A DNA stretch of 64,000 nt from Oscillatoria sp. FACHB-1407. GTDB lineage: Bacteria > Cyanobacteriota > Cyanobacteriia > Elainellales > Elainellaceae. This document shows, piece after piece, positions 43,339 through 49,645 of the stretch. The stretch spans positions 1 through 64,000 of the forward strand of contig NZ_JACJSA010000022.1 of NCBI RefSeq assembly GCF_014697545.1, written 5' to 3'. The position numbers were made by a program, and so were the translations under genes. Each line of letters begins with the position of its first letter. The stretch's first letter is position 1. Under the pieces are notes generated by a model, which made no database searches, had not been told where the DNA came from, and saw only the letters and a program-made list of their open reading frames with translations.

Positions 43339-45060
43339 TTACTGATAGCTACCTGTCTTACGGTGCTGCACAGCCGTCATCCCGACGGGTTCTAAGACCT
43401 TGCCGTTGTCGATCGTGGCGTAGATGAGCCAGTGATCCCCGCAGTCCATTCGGTCATGCACATTGCACTCCAGATAGGCGAGGGCATCATCCAAAATCAA
43501 GCAACCATTTGCCGCAGGGTGAGTCGGAATGTCGTGAAAGCGATTTTCACCAGGGGCGATCGGTTTCACGAAATGTCGCCGCAGGTTGCGTCCTTCCTTC
43601 AACACATTCAGCACAAACGCATCACCGATTTGGGTCAACACATCATCTGCCCAAGACTTCGCCAGTGAAACCGTCAACCCCGGTGGACTGAAAGTTGCTT
43701 GAGACACCCAGGACGTTAGGATGCCTGTGTCGGTTGCGCCCTGCTTTGCCGTTAGCACACACAATGATCCGATCACCCGACCCATCGCTTGCTCCGTGCG
43801 ATCGCTCTGAACCTCAATGCCCGGTTGCCGAATAGTACGAGTTTTGCGAGCTTTGCGGAGGGCTTGAGCAAATTCAGTGCCTGCGGTCTCGCACTGCTTG
43901 AGCACTTCATCCGTCGGTTTAAACTTGACCCGCAGCGTTTCAAAGCCAAGGGTATAGCCCGCATCCTGAAGTTTGCGTTCGATCATATCCACCGCTTCGC
44001 CGCTCCAGCCATAGGAACCAAACACCCCTGCCAGCTTGGTTTTGGAGGCAGTTGAGAGAACAATACCCAGTGCCGTTTGAATTTGGGTGGGCGGATGACC
44101 TGCCAGCGTTGGAGAGCCGATGACAAAGCCATCACTCGCTTCGATCGCCTCAGCAACATCAGCCGGATCAGCAAATTCGCAGTTAATCGATTCCACCGTG
44201 ACATCCGCTTGTTGAAGCCCCTGAGCGATCGCCCCTGCCATTGCAGTTGTGTTGCCATAGGCGGAGGCATACAACAGTGCCACCTTCAAATCCTGCGTCT
44301 TTTGCTGCTGGCTCCACTGACGATAGTCATAGTTAAATCGGCTCAAGCTGTAGCGCACGATGGGGCCATGCCCCGGTGCATAAAACTTGGCAGTAAACTC
44401 TGACAATTTATCTAATGCAGTTTCCACTTGACGCGCTTGGGAGGCGTGCAGACAGTCGAAGTAATAGTGGCGATCCTCATCCAGTTGTTTCCACTGCTCA
44501 TCAAAAATAGCGTCATCACAGACATGAGCACCAAACAATTTGTCGGTGTAGAGAATGCGAGTAGCTGGATCGTAGGTACACAGCGCATCAGGGTGTCGTG
44601 GAGTAGGCACAAAGGCAAACTGAAGCTGATGCCCGTTACCCAAATCCAGGGTTTCGTCATCCCGAACCACGCTAATGGATAGCTCTTGATTAGGGAAGGC
44701 GGCTCTAAGCGCGATCGCCCCTGGTTTAGAACAGACAAACGTCACTTGCGCGGCATATTCCAGCAAAGTCTTGAGGGTTATCAATCGATTGGGGTTGACA
44801 TGCCCCAAAATCACGTAATTGATCTTCTGCAAGTAGACATGCTGCTGCAATTCCCGCAGGTAGATGTTGGTGAAGGACTCGCCAGGCGGGTCAATCACCG
44901 CAATCTTCTCTCCCTGAATCACATAGGAGTTTGCTGTGGTGCCCTTTTGCCGAGCGTATTCCACTTCAAACTTCAGCCGATCCCAGGTACGCGATCGCAA
45001 CACGAGCGTATTGGTGCCAATTTCAGCAACCTGGACATCACGAGGTTTAACGTCAGCCAT
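43339..45060 (-). CDS. flv1: Flavodiiron protein Flv1
   Basis: 573 aa with the three cyanobacterial FDP domains: metallo-beta-lactamase-like (about 30-250), flavodoxin (about 265-400) and a C-terminal flavin reductase domain (about 425-570, ending VQHRKTGSYQ). The iron-ligand motif H-x-E-x-D-H is replaced by His87-Val-Asn89-Pro-Asn91-Arg92 (LGHVNPNR), which is characteristic of the Flv1/Flv2 type; KLAGVFGSYGWSGEAVD and KFKPTDEVLK fit Flv1. It works with Flv3 in light-driven reduction of oxygen to water downstream of photosystem I. It lies 184 bases after flv3 on the same strand. Confidence 0.92.
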   Translation of the reverse strand: MADVKPRDVQVAEIGTNTLVLRSRTWDRLKFEVEYARQKGTTANSYVIQGEKIAVIDPPGESFTNIYLRELQQHVYLQKINYVILGHVNPNRLITLKTLLEYAAQVTFVCSKPGAIALRAAFPNQELSISVVRDDETLDLGNGHQLQFAFVPTPRHPDALCTYDPATRILYTDKLFGAHVCDDAIFDEQWKQLDEDRHYYFDCLHASQARQVETALDKLSEFTAKFYAPGHGPIVRYSLSRFNYDYRQWSQQQKTQDLKVALLYASAYGNTTAMAGAIAQGLQQADVTVESINCEFADPADVAEAIEASDGFVIGSPTLAGHPPTQIQTALGIVLSTASKTKLAGVFGSYGWSGEAVDMIERKLQDAGYTLGFETLRVKFKPTDEVLKQCETAGTEFAQALRKARKTRTIRQPGIEVQSDRTEQAMGRVIGSLCVLTAKQGATDTGILTSWVSQATFSPPGLTVSLAKSWADDVLTQIGDAFVLNVLKEGRNLRRHFVKPIAPGENRFHDIPTHPAANGCLILDDALAYLECNVHDRMDCGDHWLIYATIDNGKVLEPVGMTAVQHRKTGSYQ

Positions 45061-45244: not shown

Positions 45245-46963
45245 TTAGTAGTGGTTGCCCACTTTGCGATGGTGTACGGCAGTCAACGCATCCATCTTGG
45301 AAACCCGTCCCGTATCAATGGTGCTGTAGACAATCCAGTGATCGCTGCACTCAATTCGGCTGACCACCTCACACTCCAGGTAAGCCAGTGCCTCCCCTAA
45401 AATGGGGGAACCGTTGACGGCTGCGTAGGTCTTGACTCCGGCAAATCGATCCGCCCCCGGTGAGAACCGCTTGAGGAAATGCTTCATCAACGTTTGGTGG
45501 TTGCCTTCCTCCAACACATTCAGCACAAAGCGATCGCCCACATGCATAAAGGACTCGATCGCCCGGTCTTTTGCCACTGCAATGGTGATACCCAGAGGTT
45601 TTGCACTCGCCTGGGAAACCCACGATGCCAACATCGCGCTGGAGATGTCGCCCTTCTTGGCGGTGATGATGTACAAACCGCCACTGAGACGACCCAGAGC
45701 TTTATCTAACTCGTTATCGAGGGATTTCATCTGCTTCACGGCCCGATCGCGCGTGAGCCACTGACCCATGTCTGTACCCGCCTCATCACAAAGCTGATAG
45801 GTCGCATCGGTTGGTGTTTCTTTGATCAGAATGGGGGGAAAGGCTTCAGTTAAGCCAATTTCGCGGAAGCGATTTCGCAACGGGTGGACGGACTCATCGT
45901 TGCCGCCACCACTTTCAAATAGCCCGATCGCCTGCTTGGTATGGGCTGCCGCCAGGATGGTGCCCATCGCTGCCAGAGTTGAGTCATCGGATTGAGGTGG
46001 CATCCCAATCACCAACCCCGATGCCATATCGACTGCTTCTCGTACTTCTTGAGGATCAGCCGAGGTTAAGTCAATCAGATCAACGGTTACCCCAGTTTTG
46101 CTGATACCATTGGCGATCGCCTGTGCCAGCTTTTCCGAGTAGCCATAACCAGAGACATAAAATAATCCAACGCTGGTGGCTGCCTTGGCTTGAGCCTCAC
46201 TCCACTCGCGATAGCGACCGACCAGATCGGTGATGTGGTGGCGCAGCAGTGGACCATGACCTGTAGCGATCGTCTGAATCTCCGGCAACTCGTTCATCCG
46301 CTTGATTGCCGACAACACAGAGCGAGCATTGGGACCCATCAAGCAGTCATAGTAAATCTTGAAATCTTCCTCAATCAGATCCAGATCTTCGTCATAGGTG
46401 AAGTCGTTGCAGTAATGCATCCCAAAAGCATCGCAGGTGAAGAGGATCTGCGTTTTGTGGTCATAGGTAAAGATTGTGTCGGGCCAGTGCAGGTTCGGAG
46501 CCGAGACAAATTCCAACTCATGCCCATTGCCCAGGTCAAGGCGATCGCCACTCTTCACCAGCTTGCGCTCAAAGGGTTGATGTACCAGATCTTCCAGGAA
46601 CTGGATCGCAACTTTTGCGCCCACGACCGTAATTTGGGGAGCCAGTTGCAACACATCTTTGATTAACCCGCTATGGTCAGGCTCGGTGTGGCTGACGATC
46701 AGGTAATCGATCTCCTGAGGATCGATCACCCCCTGGAGCATATCGAGATATAGTTCGCGAAACTTTTCGTGGGAGGTGTCGATCAGAGCCGTCTTTTCAC
46801 CCCGGATCAAGAAGGAATTGTAGGTCGTCCCGTTTTGCAGCGCAAACTCGATGTCAAAGCGATCGCGATCCCAATCAAGCGATCGCAGCGTCGTAGTATC
46901 AGGGGCAATCTCAACCTGCTGCATTGTCAGCCGAGTGCGAGTGCGGTCTGCTAGTGCTACCAT
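45245..46963 (-). CDS. flv3: Flavodiiron protein Flv3
   Basis: 572 aa, same three-domain layout as Flv1 but with the canonical diiron motif His92-x-Glu94-x-Asp96-His97 (SHTEPDHSG). LRSLDWDRDRFDIEFALQNGTTYNS, PNLHWPDTIFTYD and the C-terminal TAVHHRKVGNHY are close to known Flv3 proteins. The FMN-binding flavodoxin part and the flavin reductase domain (NVLEEGNHQTLMKHFLKRF) are complete. Start ATG 46963 has AGGAGG seven bases upstream. It is the first gene of the flv3-flv1 pair and is expected to protect photosystem I under fluctuating light. Confidence 0.94.
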   Translation of the reverse strand: MVALADRTRTRLTMQQVEIAPDTTTLRSLDWDRDRFDIEFALQNGTTYNSFLIRGEKTALIDTSHEKFRELYLDMLQGVIDPQEIDYLIVSHTEPDHSGLIKDVLQLAPQITVVGAKVAIQFLEDLVHQPFERKLVKSGDRLDLGNGHELEFVSAPNLHWPDTIFTYDHKTQILFTCDAFGMHYCNDFTYDEDLDLIEEDFKIYYDCLMGPNARSVLSAIKRMNELPEIQTIATGHGPLLRHHITDLVGRYREWSEAQAKAATSVGLFYVSGYGYSEKLAQAIANGISKTGVTVDLIDLTSADPQEVREAVDMASGLVIGMPPQSDDSTLAAMGTILAAAHTKQAIGLFESGGGNDESVHPLRNRFREIGLTEAFPPILIKETPTDATYQLCDEAGTDMGQWLTRDRAVKQMKSLDNELDKALGRLSGGLYIITAKKGDISSAMLASWVSQASAKPLGITIAVAKDRAIESFMHVGDRFVLNVLEEGNHQTLMKHFLKRFSPGADRFAGVKTYAAVNGSPILGEALAYLECEVVSRIECSDHWIVYSTIDTGRVSKMDALTAVHHRKVGNHY

Positions 46964-47311
46964 GCCAACCCTCCTACAAAAGTGAAAAGCTTTTTGCTCT
47001 GCTCTTATTATCGGCTATTGATCCCCCTTTTTGTAAAGTTTTAATAAGCAATCTTGCCTATAAATAAAAGCTATCAAAAAAGTTACATTTAACCAAAATA
47101 ATAGATTTTTACTTATAAATCTCGTCTTTCCTGGATGCCCCATTCACCGCTTAACCCAGAACCACGCTCATTTCAGCAGTTTACAACCTACACAAACAGA
47201 CACGAGGAATCGAGCCATTCCCCATTCCCCATTTCCCATTCCCCTTGCAGACGCGATCAATCATGCTCGTCCACTTCCCACTTTCTCCATCGGTATAAAG
47301 CTCTTGAATTA
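46964..47311. other. Flv3 promoter side and short repeats
   Basis: AT-rich DNA (46990-47130) upstream of flv3 is the expected promoter region. At 47218-47245 there are CCATTCCC heptamers (CCCCATTTCCCATTCCCC). No gene is supported. Confidence 0.5.
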
Positions 47312-47325
47312 AGTACATTTGTACT
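47312..47325 (+). promoter_or_regulatory. Consensus cyanobacterial LexA (SOS) box
   Basis: AGTACATTTGTACT is a perfect 6-2-6 palindrome and matches the published cyanobacterial LexA consensus AGTACWNWTGTACT at all fixed positions. It lies 99 bases upstream of the 47424 gene, next to possible promoter elements TTGAAT (47304) and TATTAT (47325). A near match, AGTACAGTAGTACA, occurs at 47873-47886. Confidence 0.65.
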
Positions 47326-47376
47326 ATTATTGAGTAGTACAATCCACCCTTTTAGATACTCTAAATCATCATCTCC

Positions 47377-47397
47377 GTAGTGAATAAACACTACAAT
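47377..47397 (+). promoter_or_regulatory. 21-bp palindromic promoter element, copy A
   Basis: GTAGTG (47377-47382) and CACTAC (47389-47394) flank AATAAA, and AAT follows. The last six bases, TACAAT, look like a -10 box. It shares 18 of 21 bases with copy B (47851-47871) and lies exactly 26 bases before ATG 47424. Confidence 0.65.
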
Positions 47398-47423
47398 AGA
47401 GATAGTCTAAATGGATGATTGTT

Positions 47424-47816
47424 ATGCGCATGGGTCACTTCTTTTCTTTAGGAGATGGAAAAGTCGGTCAGTTTTTATCTCCGCGCGTGTTAGTCGTGCG
47501 ATCGCCCTTTCAAGCCCATCGTCTGCCTCGTCGTACAACTGAATTTTCTTGTTTTGGATTTGATACCTTTTCACAGGCGCAACGATTCATTCAATCCCTG
47601 TCCCATCTGGGTTTGCGCTTTGAATTGCGTCCTGGCAAGGTGCTGCCACACTCTGCCTATGAGGTGATTTTGTGGGGGAATACCGACCTTGCCCGGACGT
47701 TAGCTTTTTGGGATCGACATGATCTGAGGCAGTTTCAACTCCCCTCCGAGACTCTCCAGGTTCGGTCAAAGTCGGCTCCTTCAAGCCCTGATTCAACTCC
47801 AGCGATCGCCGCTTAG
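47424..47816 (+). CDS. Unknown small basic protein, first gene of a cassette
   Basis: 130 aa from ATG 47424. This start is preferred over 47415 because the 26-base spacing from the upstream palindrome then equals that of the next gene. The sequence MRMGHFFSLGDGKVGQFLSP...LVVRSPFQAHRLPRRTTEFSCFGFDTFSQAQRFIQSL...YEVILWGNTDLARTLAFWDRHDL looks globular, basic and alpha/beta. The C-terminus is Ser/Pro-rich. I do not recognise a family, and there is no signal or membrane segment. Its upstream region holds a LexA box. Confidence 0.65.
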   Translation: MRMGHFFSLGDGKVGQFLSPRVLVVRSPFQAHRLPRRTTEFSCFGFDTFSQAQRFIQSLSHLGLRFELRPGKVLPHSAYEVILWGNTDLARTLAFWDRHDLRQFQLPSETLQVRSKSAPSSPDSTPAIAA

Positions 47817-47850
47817 GACGGTTTATAGGCTGTCCCTCATGGTTGTCATT

Positions 47851-47871
47851 GTTGTGAATCTACACTACAAT
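47851..47871 (+). promoter_or_regulatory. 21-bp palindromic promoter element, copy B
   Basis: GTTGTG-AATCTA-CACTAC-AAT at 47851-47871 differs from copy A at three positions. TACAAT (47866-47871) is a -10-like box. It is exactly 26 bases before ATG 47898. Confidence 0.65.
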
Positions 47872-47897
47872 TAGTACAGTAGTACACTCTTATTCCC

Positions 47898-48173
47898 ATG
47901 ACTAAGCACTACGTCCTCAATATCAATCCTTCCGCTGAGTACGACTGGGATCGTTGCACCCTCCGCGACCCTATTACCGCTGAGCGACCCGAACTGGCTC
48001 AACTGGTTGCTGATGCCGTAGATGGGCGATCGGGTGCCTATCTCGTTTCGGTTGAGATTCAGATCAAAGTGCTGGAAGAAGCTCCCCTGCCTCAAACAAA
48101 ACCCGTTCCTCTCAGCAAAGCAGAGGTTCCGGCTCACACCTCGCGCGAAAAACAGCGAGAAATGGTGGCATAG
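47898..48173 (+). CDS. Unknown small protein, second gene of the cassette
   Basis: 91 aa. YVLNINPSAEYDWDRCTLRDP...AQLVADAVDGRSGAYLVSVEIQIKVLEEAP is followed by a charged, Pro/Lys-rich tail. No known domain. The promoter element copy B sits just upstream. An 18-base gap separates it from the coiled-coil gene, so the two likely share a transcript. Confidence 0.6.
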   Translation: MTKHYVLNINPSAEYDWDRCTLRDPITAERPELAQLVADAVDGRSGAYLVSVEIQIKVLEEAPLPQTKPVPLSKAEVPAHTSREKQREMVA

Positions 48174-48191
48174 ATTATCAGGAGATAAACG

Positions 48192-48560
48192 ATGAAACTA
48201 AGCCAATACCCTGAGGCGATCGCCCAGGCAGTAAAGGCTGTGAATACGCTCGATCAACGCATCGCTGAATTACGGCAAGATATCGCCTATCTAGAAGGCA
48301 AGGCAGAGTTGGTCGTTGCATTTGAAACAGCTCTGAAGAACGACAACCAGCGGCGAGCACGGCGGTTTGAAATTTTAGAAGCTAGCCTTGACTATCGCGA
48401 GCTACAACTCAAGCTGCTGCACCTGACCACTGAAAAGTCGAACGCTCTGGCTCATGTAGAATTTTTGCGAAACCAATTTAGTGTGGCTAAATTAGAAGCT
48501 CGATTGTCACTTGCTGACAAACTGGTGGGCATTGAGGCTCGCGAACTGGTTGAATTGTAA
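48192..48560 (+). CDS. Coiled-coil protein, third gene of the cassette
   Basis: 122 aa from ATG 48192, with GGAG seven bases upstream. The sequence is almost all helix with heptad character (NTLDQRIAELRQDIAYLEGKAELVVAFETALKNDNQRRARRFEILEASLDYRELQLKLLHL). No known domain is recognised; coiled-coil proteins of this type often dimerise. It is 18 bases after the 91-aa gene. Confidence 0.65.
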   Translation: MKLSQYPEAIAQAVKAVNTLDQRIAELRQDIAYLEGKAELVVAFETALKNDNQRRARRFEILEASLDYRELQLKLLHLTTEKSNALAHVEFLRNQFSVAKLEARLSLADKLVGIEARELVEL

Positions 48561-48645
48561 AGCGACTGGCTTCGCGCACAACTCGCAGGCTACTCGTTAG
48601 CAAACGGTTACCTCCGTTGCTCATTGGATAATATCTGTACCCACC

Positions 48646-49002
48646 ATGCAAGGAAACCTGGCAGAGGTGATTCGGGAGTTGATGGATGCCCAACATTTGA
48701 GCGTTCGTAAGGTGTCTGCCCGAATCGCCGAAAAACATGGGGGAAGTGTGTACGGTTACACTCAGCAGGTGAGCCGAATTCTCAACGACCCCAACTACGA
48801 CCCTACTTTGTCAACAGTACAAAAAATTCTCTCTGCCCTGAATGTCTCATTTTGGCAGGTCAATCGCCTCCCAAAATTGCAGGAGCAGCATCGTTTAGAT
48901 GACAATCACATTAGCGATCGCCTCGACCAGTTGAGCACCGACATGGCAGATTTAAAACTCGCGATGGCAGAGTTGCAAGAAGCGGTCAAGAAATTGCTAT
49001 GA
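48646..49002 (+). CDS. HTH (XRE-type) regulator with C-terminal coiled coil
   Basis: 118 aa. LAEVIRELMDAQHLSVRKVSARIAEKHGGSVYGYTQQVSRILNDPNYDPTLSTVQKILSALNVSFWQV is a helix-turn-helix of the XRE/Cro kind with an inserted loop. The C-terminal about 35 residues (RLDDNHISDRLDQLSTDMADLKLAMAELQEAVKKLL) are a coiled coil. It is the last gene before tRNA-Leu and may control the cassette through the palindromic elements; this is inferred. Confidence 0.75.
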   Translation: MQGNLAEVIRELMDAQHLSVRKVSARIAEKHGGSVYGYTQQVSRILNDPNYDPTLSTVQKILSALNVSFWQVNRLPKLQEQHRLDDNHISDRLDQLSTDMADLKLAMAELQEAVKKLL

Positions 49003-49019
49003 TGGATCAGCTTATATGA

Positions 49020-49101
49020 GCGGATGTGGCGGAATTGGTAGACGCGCTAGATTTAGGTTCTAGTTTCGCAAGAAGTGAAGGTTCAAGTCCTTTCATCCGC
49101 A
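49020..49101 (+). tRNA. tRNA-Leu (anticodon UAG)
   Basis: 82 nt. The acceptor GCGGATG/CATCCGC pairs, the anticodon stem CTAGA/TCTAG encloses TTTAGGT (anticodon TAG), a long variable arm follows as in leucine tRNAs, and the T arm contains GGTTCAAGTCC. The discriminator is A; CCA is not encoded. Confidence 0.94.
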
Positions 49102-49117
49102 TTCATTATTTATCAAC

Positions 49118-49645
49118 TCACCACCACTTGCGGTTGTCGTAGAACCAGCCTGTTTGTTTAGGTGGTAGACAGAGAGGTTTACCGCCTCGCAGCGTCGTCC
49201 AGGTAATCGCATCCACGATTCCAGTTTCTTTGTGGCGATGTTTTTTTTGAAAGGCGATCACGGCTTGTTGAGTTGCAGCATCAAAAATCCCATTGCGAGC
49301 AATATACTGCCCCTGCACCTGAAGCAATCCCTGCAATTCGTAGACATCAACGCCAGTATGCCCATACTTTAAAGTCCGGCAACCCGCCTGCACAGAGGAT
49401 TTTAAGGCAATCCAAGTCTTGTGACCCACAATGCCATCCGCTCTCAAATGGTGTAACCGTTGAAAGGCTTTGACAGCCGCTTCTGTTACACTTCCAAAGT
49501 CACCATCAATACGCAACTGGAAACCATGAGCCTGTAACAATTCCTGCAACTCAGCGACCACAGGACCAGAATCCCACGGGTGCAACTCTGGACCCATCAA
49601 CACCACATTGCTAACTGCATGAGCAAATTCAGGAGTTCCGCTCAT
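49118..49645 (-). CDS. Peptidoglycan-binding protein with two PG_binding_1 domains
   Basis: 175 aa from ATG 49645 (a GTG 11 codons upstream is alternative). Two repeats match PG_binding_1: GPVVAELQELLQAHGFQLRIDGDFGSVTEAAVKAFQRLHHLRADGIVG (about 28-75) and VDVYELQGLLQVQGQYIARNGIFDAATQQAVIAFQKKHRHKETGIVD (about 98-145). No signal peptide or catalytic domain is seen, so export or partner is unclear. Confidence 0.85.
   Translation of the reverse strand: MSGTPEFAHAVSNVVLMGPELHPWDSGPVVAELQELLQAHGFQLRIDGDFGSVTEAAVKAFQRLHHLRADGIVGHKTWIALKSSVQAGCRTLKYGHTGVDVYELQGLLQVQGQYIARNGIFDAATQQAVIAFQKKHRHKETGIVDAITWTTLRGGKPLCLPPKQTGWFYDNRKWW

Follow-up and report, generated by a model that had tools for sequence, protein, structure and literature searches.

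In Deinococcus, the XRE repressor DdrO is described as recognizing a palindromic 17-bp sequence, the RDRM, situated in or near promoters; it is reported to control about 20 scattered genes and to be cleaved by IrrE (PMC5552922, PMC12565409). A second described system, the arh cluster of the cyanobacterium Limnospira indica PCC 8005, encodes small proteins beside an XRE regulator, ArhR, which has been proposed as the controller (PMC4398503, PMC4550399, PMC8400943). The cluster is reported to be strongly induced by gamma rays (PMC8400943), and PCC 8005 is reported to be without LexA (PMC4398503, PMC4550399, PMC8400943). For LexA itself, the cyanobacterial consensus has been published as AGTACWNWTGTACT (PMC3091678).

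Here we analysed a stretch of 64,000 nucleotides from Oscillatoria sp. FACHB-1407 (the window), whose cyanobacterial setting fits the named relatives and the neighbouring genes. Four genes lie in a row on the plus strand and form a conserved cassette: P1 (47424–47816) encodes a small protein, P2 (47898–48173) a 91-aa protein and P3 (48192–48560) a conserved coiled-coil-like protein, none with an assigned family, and P4 (48646–49002) encodes an XRE/Cro-type HTH protein whose C-terminus is coiled-coil-like. On the minus strand, the cassette is preceded by genes for two adjacent flavodiiron-type proteins (43339–45060 and 45245–46963), which contain ODP, flavodoxin and flavin-reductase domains, and a tRNA gene (49020–49101; Rfam) lies directly downstream of P4. 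Two copies of a 21-bp element, A1 (47377–47397, plus strand, GTAGTGAATAAACACTACAAT) and A2 (47851–47871, plus strand, GTTGTGAATCTACACTACAAT), precede P1 and P2. We conclude from sequence comparison that A1 and A2 are a genuine, conserved and cassette-specific pair of candidate operators on the P1 and P2 promoters, and that P4 probably represses both promoters through element A, with LexA-like boxes as a likely second layer.

The circuit predicted here resembles that described for DdrO in having an XRE-kind HTH protein, a palindrome in or beside the promoter, a likely dimer and coordinate control, the P4 side of this likeness being predicted. It differs in that two A sites serve one cassette and no set of many scattered genes was found, and the RDRM sequence is unlike element A. 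With the arh cluster, as described, the locus shares small cyanobacterial proteins without known function next to an XRE regulator. In contrast to arhR, which is described as divergent from arhA, P4 lies downstream of P3 on the same strand in the window and in all 20 P4-holding loci compared (the window's included), and all 71 P2-bearing genomes searched have LexA, unlike PCC 8005 as reported. The arh cluster is a suggestive parallel. Promoter-palindrome switches of XRE repressors are a familiar kind; for this one, no earlier description of element A or of the P1–P4 cassette was noticed among the papers listed in a literature search.

No convincing or above-cut-off family was found for P1, P2 or P3 in Pfam, NCBIfam, PHROGs and PADLOC; P1 and P2 relatives searched against Pfam likewise gave nothing above cut-off, and P3 showed similarity to ZapB only, below threshold. 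Structure models of P1 (pLDDT 80.9) and P2 (pLDDT 78.3) had no PDB match at E ≤ 0.001. P4 matches Pfam HTH_3 (PF01381) with 24.7 bits against a cut-off of 23 and so carries an XRE/Cro-type HTH domain; it had no match in NCBIfam, and a search of PDB sequences returned designed, coiled-coil and other chains but no useful relative. Across 20 aligned rows, the P4 region GYTQQ..RILND is almost invariant. An origin of P2 from plasmids or phages was considered and set aside, since tblastn at E 1e-5 gave no match in collections of 72,556 plasmids and 50,697 phages.

Element A reads GTAGTG-N6-CACTACAAT, with inverted half-sites GTAGTG/CACTAC spanning 18 bp around a variable 6-bp middle. The original prediction described two near-identical 21-bp palindromes at one distance from two ATGs, and each part of that description stands. 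The two copies share 18 of 21 bases and were recovered by a repeat search as a two-copy family with 86% identity; each is an 18-bp palindrome followed by AAT, with half-site pairs matching at 6/6 positions in A1 and 5/6 in A2. Exactly 26 bases separate the end of A1 from the ATG at 47424 and the end of A2 from the ATG at 47898. For P1, three in-frame ATGs are available, at 47415 (the start given in the ORF list), 47424 and 47430, which lie 17, 26 and 32 nt past A1. The choice of 47424 is favoured by the orthologues, in which the window's MRMGHFF aligns with MQIGRFF, mostly 26–27 nt after A; the ATG aligning with MQIGRFF was accordingly used as the P1 start in each genome, and spacings have to be read with the caveat that several P1 genes, the window's too, have alternative in-frame starts.

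The prediction was open to the objection that such a motif might recur at random positions. In the 8,128,580 bases of the window genome, GTWGTGN6CACTACAAT has two exact matches, both at the cassette, and a reversed control has none; here and in the class-wide searches below, the objection was not borne out. With up to three mismatches, the pattern gave 164 matches against 142 for the reversed control, which shows no sign of a larger site set. A dispersed repeat or mobile element was rejected as an explanation, exact copies in this genome being confined to the cassette and occurrence away from it in other genomes being at background level. An RNA element was also rejected: the region 46900–49200 has no Rfam match above the gathering score apart from the tRNA, and since the palindrome coincides with the -10 and extends upstream from it, transcripts of that promoter should not include it.

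Both elements coincide with promoter-like sequences. CACTACAAT includes TACAAT, a good -10, which occupies the right end of A1 (47392–47397) and of A2 (47866–47871). At P2, a -35-like TTGTCA (47843–47848, plus strand) lies 17 bp before TACAAT, and TTGTCA-17-TACAAT (47843–47871) is the single sigma-70-like site in 47000–49200. As shuffled sequence yields an average of 3.2 sites of this sort, the match by itself proves little; the weight rests on the comparison among genomes, in which TTG stands at the -35 place in 19/23 P2 promoters and 0/22 P1 promoters, the window's included, at the one P2-like spacing examined. The absence of TTG suggests that the P1 promoter is weaker, or different. Transcription of P1 may depend on an additional factor, or the role of A may differ there; a possible distal -10 of P1, ACTATTAT, follows a LexA-type box at 47312–47325.

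These promoter features bear on the sign of the proposed regulation. One could imagine that P4 binds A but activates, with A placed between -35 and -10 so that binding corrects a weak promoter, as the lack of TTG at the -35 place of all 22 P1 promoters would allow. We consider this highly improbable, since 19 of 23 P2 promoters have TTG at -35, separated from the -10 by 17 bp, which implies that no correction is needed there. Moreover, by covering the -10, A occupies the position at which steric repression is usual. The sites of DdrO, likewise of the XRE kind, are described as lying in or near promoters, and DdrO is reported to repress (PMC5552922). The favoured reading thus remains that P4 would act at both promoters as a repressor.

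Of the 388 class genomes, 72 contain P2, and its loci were collected and oriented for 71 of them; one genome, G340, was omitted (P2 match E 6.5e-4), at least five further P2 loci from named contigs were kept out of the counts, and second P2 copies were excluded. We scored A as present when a match with no more than two mismatches fell within 150 nt upstream of a start. By this measure, further cyanobacteria also have A in front of P1 and P2: among P4-bearing loci it precedes P1 in 20/23 and P2 in 23/23, and Markov-simulated upstream regions contained no match at the same stringency. One locus, L100 (G294), whose matched frame had a late start, is not part of the P2 promoter counts, but A2 was observed there directly. 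The end of A lies 26–27 nt from the P1 start in 17/22 promoters, the others having 24, 29, 54 or 131 nt or an unclear start, and 26–28 nt from the P2 start in 17/23, with 35–40 nt in the remaining 6. In one genome (G073), an IS605 OrfB/TnpB-type transposase gene (Pfam; L177:1161–2261) sits between P2 and P3, with both A elements and P4 retained.

The half-sites are conserved and the 6-bp middle varies among genomes. In P1 promoters, the left half GTAGT is kept in at least 21/22 at every place and the last base is G in 17/22; in the 23 P2 promoters, the left half reads G in 23, T in 22, any base, G in 23, T in 15 or C in 8, and G in 18, and the right part ACTACAAT is present in 23/23. Promoters with more than three mismatches to A were left out of these column counts, and those with more than two out of the spacing counts, so that the rows were picked by likeness to A and the counts favour the pattern. 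Inverted half-sites around a variable middle are the pattern of a dimer site. Alternatively, A could be a mere conserved core-promoter signature, read by an alternative sigma factor or acting as an extended -10, with no operator function; its most constant letters, ACTACAAT, contain the -10, and the left half is looser at P2, at its last two places. This is very unlikely considering that the left half is almost fixed at P1 around a variable middle and that A is restricted to this cassette. Taken together, the overlap of A with the -10-like TACAAT and the conservation of half-sites and ATG distance across genera support the shared promoter-operator reading that had been predicted.

The restriction to the cassette also extends to the class. 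A search of the 388 genomes with GTNGTGN6CACTACAAT returned 26 matches, distributed over 22 genomes; 18 of these matches are at P1 or P2 promoters of 14 cassette genomes. The remaining 8 are spread over 8 other genomes, compared with 5 for the reversed control, and all 8 fall in stop-free frames of 135–508 codons. When a looser pattern was applied to 25 A-bearing genomes, 36 of its 52 matches fell at the cassette and the other 16 away from it, the control having 29.

The distribution of A follows that of P4. At E 1e-10, P4 was found in 24/71 P2-bearing genomes; A is present in 24/24 of these, in all at P2, compared with 2/47 P2 genomes without P4 (at P1 or P2). Among P4-less loci with P1, A occurs at P1 in 2/12 and at P2 in 1/12 (a degenerate copy, in G235), and among P4-less loci with no P1 upstream, in 0/35. 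"P1-less" here means that no P1 was found within 1.4–1.7 kb upstream of P2; a genome-wide P1 search covered 60 relatives. The two P4-less exceptions, G235 and G165, have an intact palindrome at P1 of the ACTACGAT variant, which in G235 lies 125–131 nt before the start. In a third P4-less genome, G094, a copy with one mismatch precedes P1 by 206 nt, beyond the counted 150 nt. G235, G165 and perhaps G094 are exceptions to the association, possibly recent losses of P4. A P4 profile search gave 0/12 in the P1-bearing, P4-less genomes and, among three P1-less genomes, a weak partial match in G312 (E 3e-4); in the other 32 of the 35 genomes without P4 and without an upstream P1, P4 was sought with one sequence at E 1e-10.

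Several genomes separate P4 from the other cassette components. In G053 and G068, P4 is encoded elsewhere in the genome, away from the cassette, and A is retained. In G028, no P1 lies upstream of P2, A2 is kept and the A1 palindrome is kept without its AAT; P3 and P4 are on another contig, with P3 directly before P4, across a contig break in an assembly that is 82% complete and fragmented. Persistence of the A palindromes in G028 with no P1 found argues against P1 as the binder. It bears on the possibility that P1 or P2, and not P4, is a DNA-binding autoregulator of A, with toxin-antitoxin-like logic, which would fit the confinement of A to P1 and P2 promoters and the presence of P1 in 25/26 A-bearing genomes. 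We consider it quite unlikely: 45 P2 genomes are without A inside 150 nt of either start, and ten genomes with both P1 and P2 are without such an A, P4 being absent from all ten. The structure models are neutral on this point, neither having a clear PDB match; the many middling matches of the P1 model include the DNA-binding domain of phage T4 MotA, and its best Z of 5.3 is common to unrelated folds. P3 was found in the P2 locus of 45/50 genomes outside family f32 and 1/21 inside it.

Genus g70, in which P4 is absent from all six genomes, gives a view of the element in the absence of its predicted binder. At P2, the right-half ACTAC is altered in 6/6 g70 genomes compared with 0/23 P4-bearing loci, and 4 of the 5 fixed left-half bases are altered in 4/6 (1 of 5 in the other 2/6); at P1, 3–4 of 5 left-half bases are altered in 4/6. 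In P4-bearing loci, by comparison, left-half changes number at most two at P2 and at most one at P1, and ACTAC is intact in 23/23 P2 and 21/22 P1 promoters. The g70 promoters keep a -10-like hexamer (TAAAAT/TACGAT-like) even where the left half is strongly altered, in four of six genomes at each promoter, which speaks against A as a core-promoter signature. In the six g70 P1 upstream regions (L064, L075, L086, L106, L108 and L110), a conserved TACGATCGT continues directly from the right half of A, and in some of them a new palindrome, CTACGATCGTAG, results.

In a tree of 47 rows, comprising the P3-bearing loci plus L067 and with long branches flagged, there are 4 changes of P4 and 6 of A. Among the supported independent pairs, 2 were concordant, 0 discordant and 2 uninformative (median p 0.5), so that the P4–A association is not significant by this test. 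The association is thus strong in count, yet it rests on few evolutionary events. The co-occurrence of A with P4, its retention where P4 lies away from the cassette (G053 and G068) and the altered elements of g70 nevertheless support P4 as the predicted binder of A.

LexA-like boxes at both promoters, here called B boxes, go beyond what the original prediction foresaw. Upstream of P1, the box AGTACATTTGTACT (47312–47325), 51 bp upstream of A1 and followed by ACTATTAT, fits AGTACWNWTGTACT and precedes a gene, in a genome that encodes LexA; at P2, AGTACAGTAGTACA (47873–47886), with two mismatches to AGTACWNWTGTACT, is situated just past the -10, over the presumed transcription start. Since AGTACN4GTACT has 7 sites in the window genome and 7 in the control, a single box could be chance, and support for the B boxes comes from other genomes. 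With no more than one mismatch, they occur upstream of P1 in 9/23 P4-bearing loci (0.1 expected) and 1/12 P4-less loci, and upstream of P2 in 4/23 P4-bearing loci (0.13 expected), 5/12 P4-less loci with P1 and 32/35 P1-less loci (0.03 expected). In many P1-less loci, the B box overlaps the -10 (GTACTATAAT) with the register seen for A in other loci, and in 14/23 P2 promoters AGTAC follows A within 18 nt downstream. LexA is the predicted binder of these boxes.

These observations raise the possibility that A is itself a variant LexA box and that LexA binds both elements in an SOS response. Element A (AGTG-N6-CACT) has a core of 14 bp, as does AGTAC-N4-GTACT, and in many genomes the two are positioned alike relative to the -10 (ACTAYAAT); B boxes lie near A, and nearly all P2 promoters of loci without P4 and P1 bear one, as counted above. 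However, A has half-sites AGTG/CACT and not AGTAC/GTACT. LexA scored above cut-off in 71/71 P2 genomes, with or without A, and is therefore unable to explain where A occurs, whereas A follows P4. Finally, the window genome has two lexA genes above cut-off (L155 and L156; G000:C12:112946–113536 and G000:C7:203755–204372), and just upstream of them are GGTACAAATGTTCT and AGTACATCTGTTCT, of AGTAC/GTTCT type and GGTAC/GTTCT type, and not A. We therefore regard LexA as an unlikely binder of A, and P4 as the probable one.

We propose that each 21-bp A would serve as a dimeric operator superimposed on a promoter's -10 and spacer, with two such promoters per cassette, one before P1 and one before P2. 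P4, encoded two genes beyond, would bind both elements and block RNA polymerase sterically, resulting in coordinate repression of both promoters. If P4 is co-transcribed with the cassette, it would also be subject to negative autoregulation; as P4 in the window is not itself preceded by a copy of A, this would depend on read-through. The two LexA-type boxes, one before A1 and the other immediately after A2, would add a second, DNA-damage-responsive layer, and because they are present, DNA damage is the natural guess for the inducing signal.

A more far-reaching history can be imagined, although we hold it to be doubtful. P2–P3 would be a DNA-damage-inducible module with an ancestral LexA box over the -10, which in several lineages would have been converted on the spot into a P4 operator of unchanged 14-bp length and register, while LexA would have stayed on as a second layer at the flank. 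Loss of P4 would then lead to operator decay and the return of LexA-type boxes, and P4 may be a LexA-independent damage switch akin to ArhR of the radiation-resistant Limnospira.

With the circuit proposed here, a cassette of family-less small cyanobacterial proteins gains a concrete regulatory scheme, in which one regulator would act at two sites on two promoters under a LexA-type overlay. The cross-genome comparison in turn provides natural experiments on the joint gain and loss of an operator and its putative repressor. If P4 is indeed a damage-responsive repressor, the cassette would bear on how damage is sensed in cyanobacteria whose LexA does not control repair genes.
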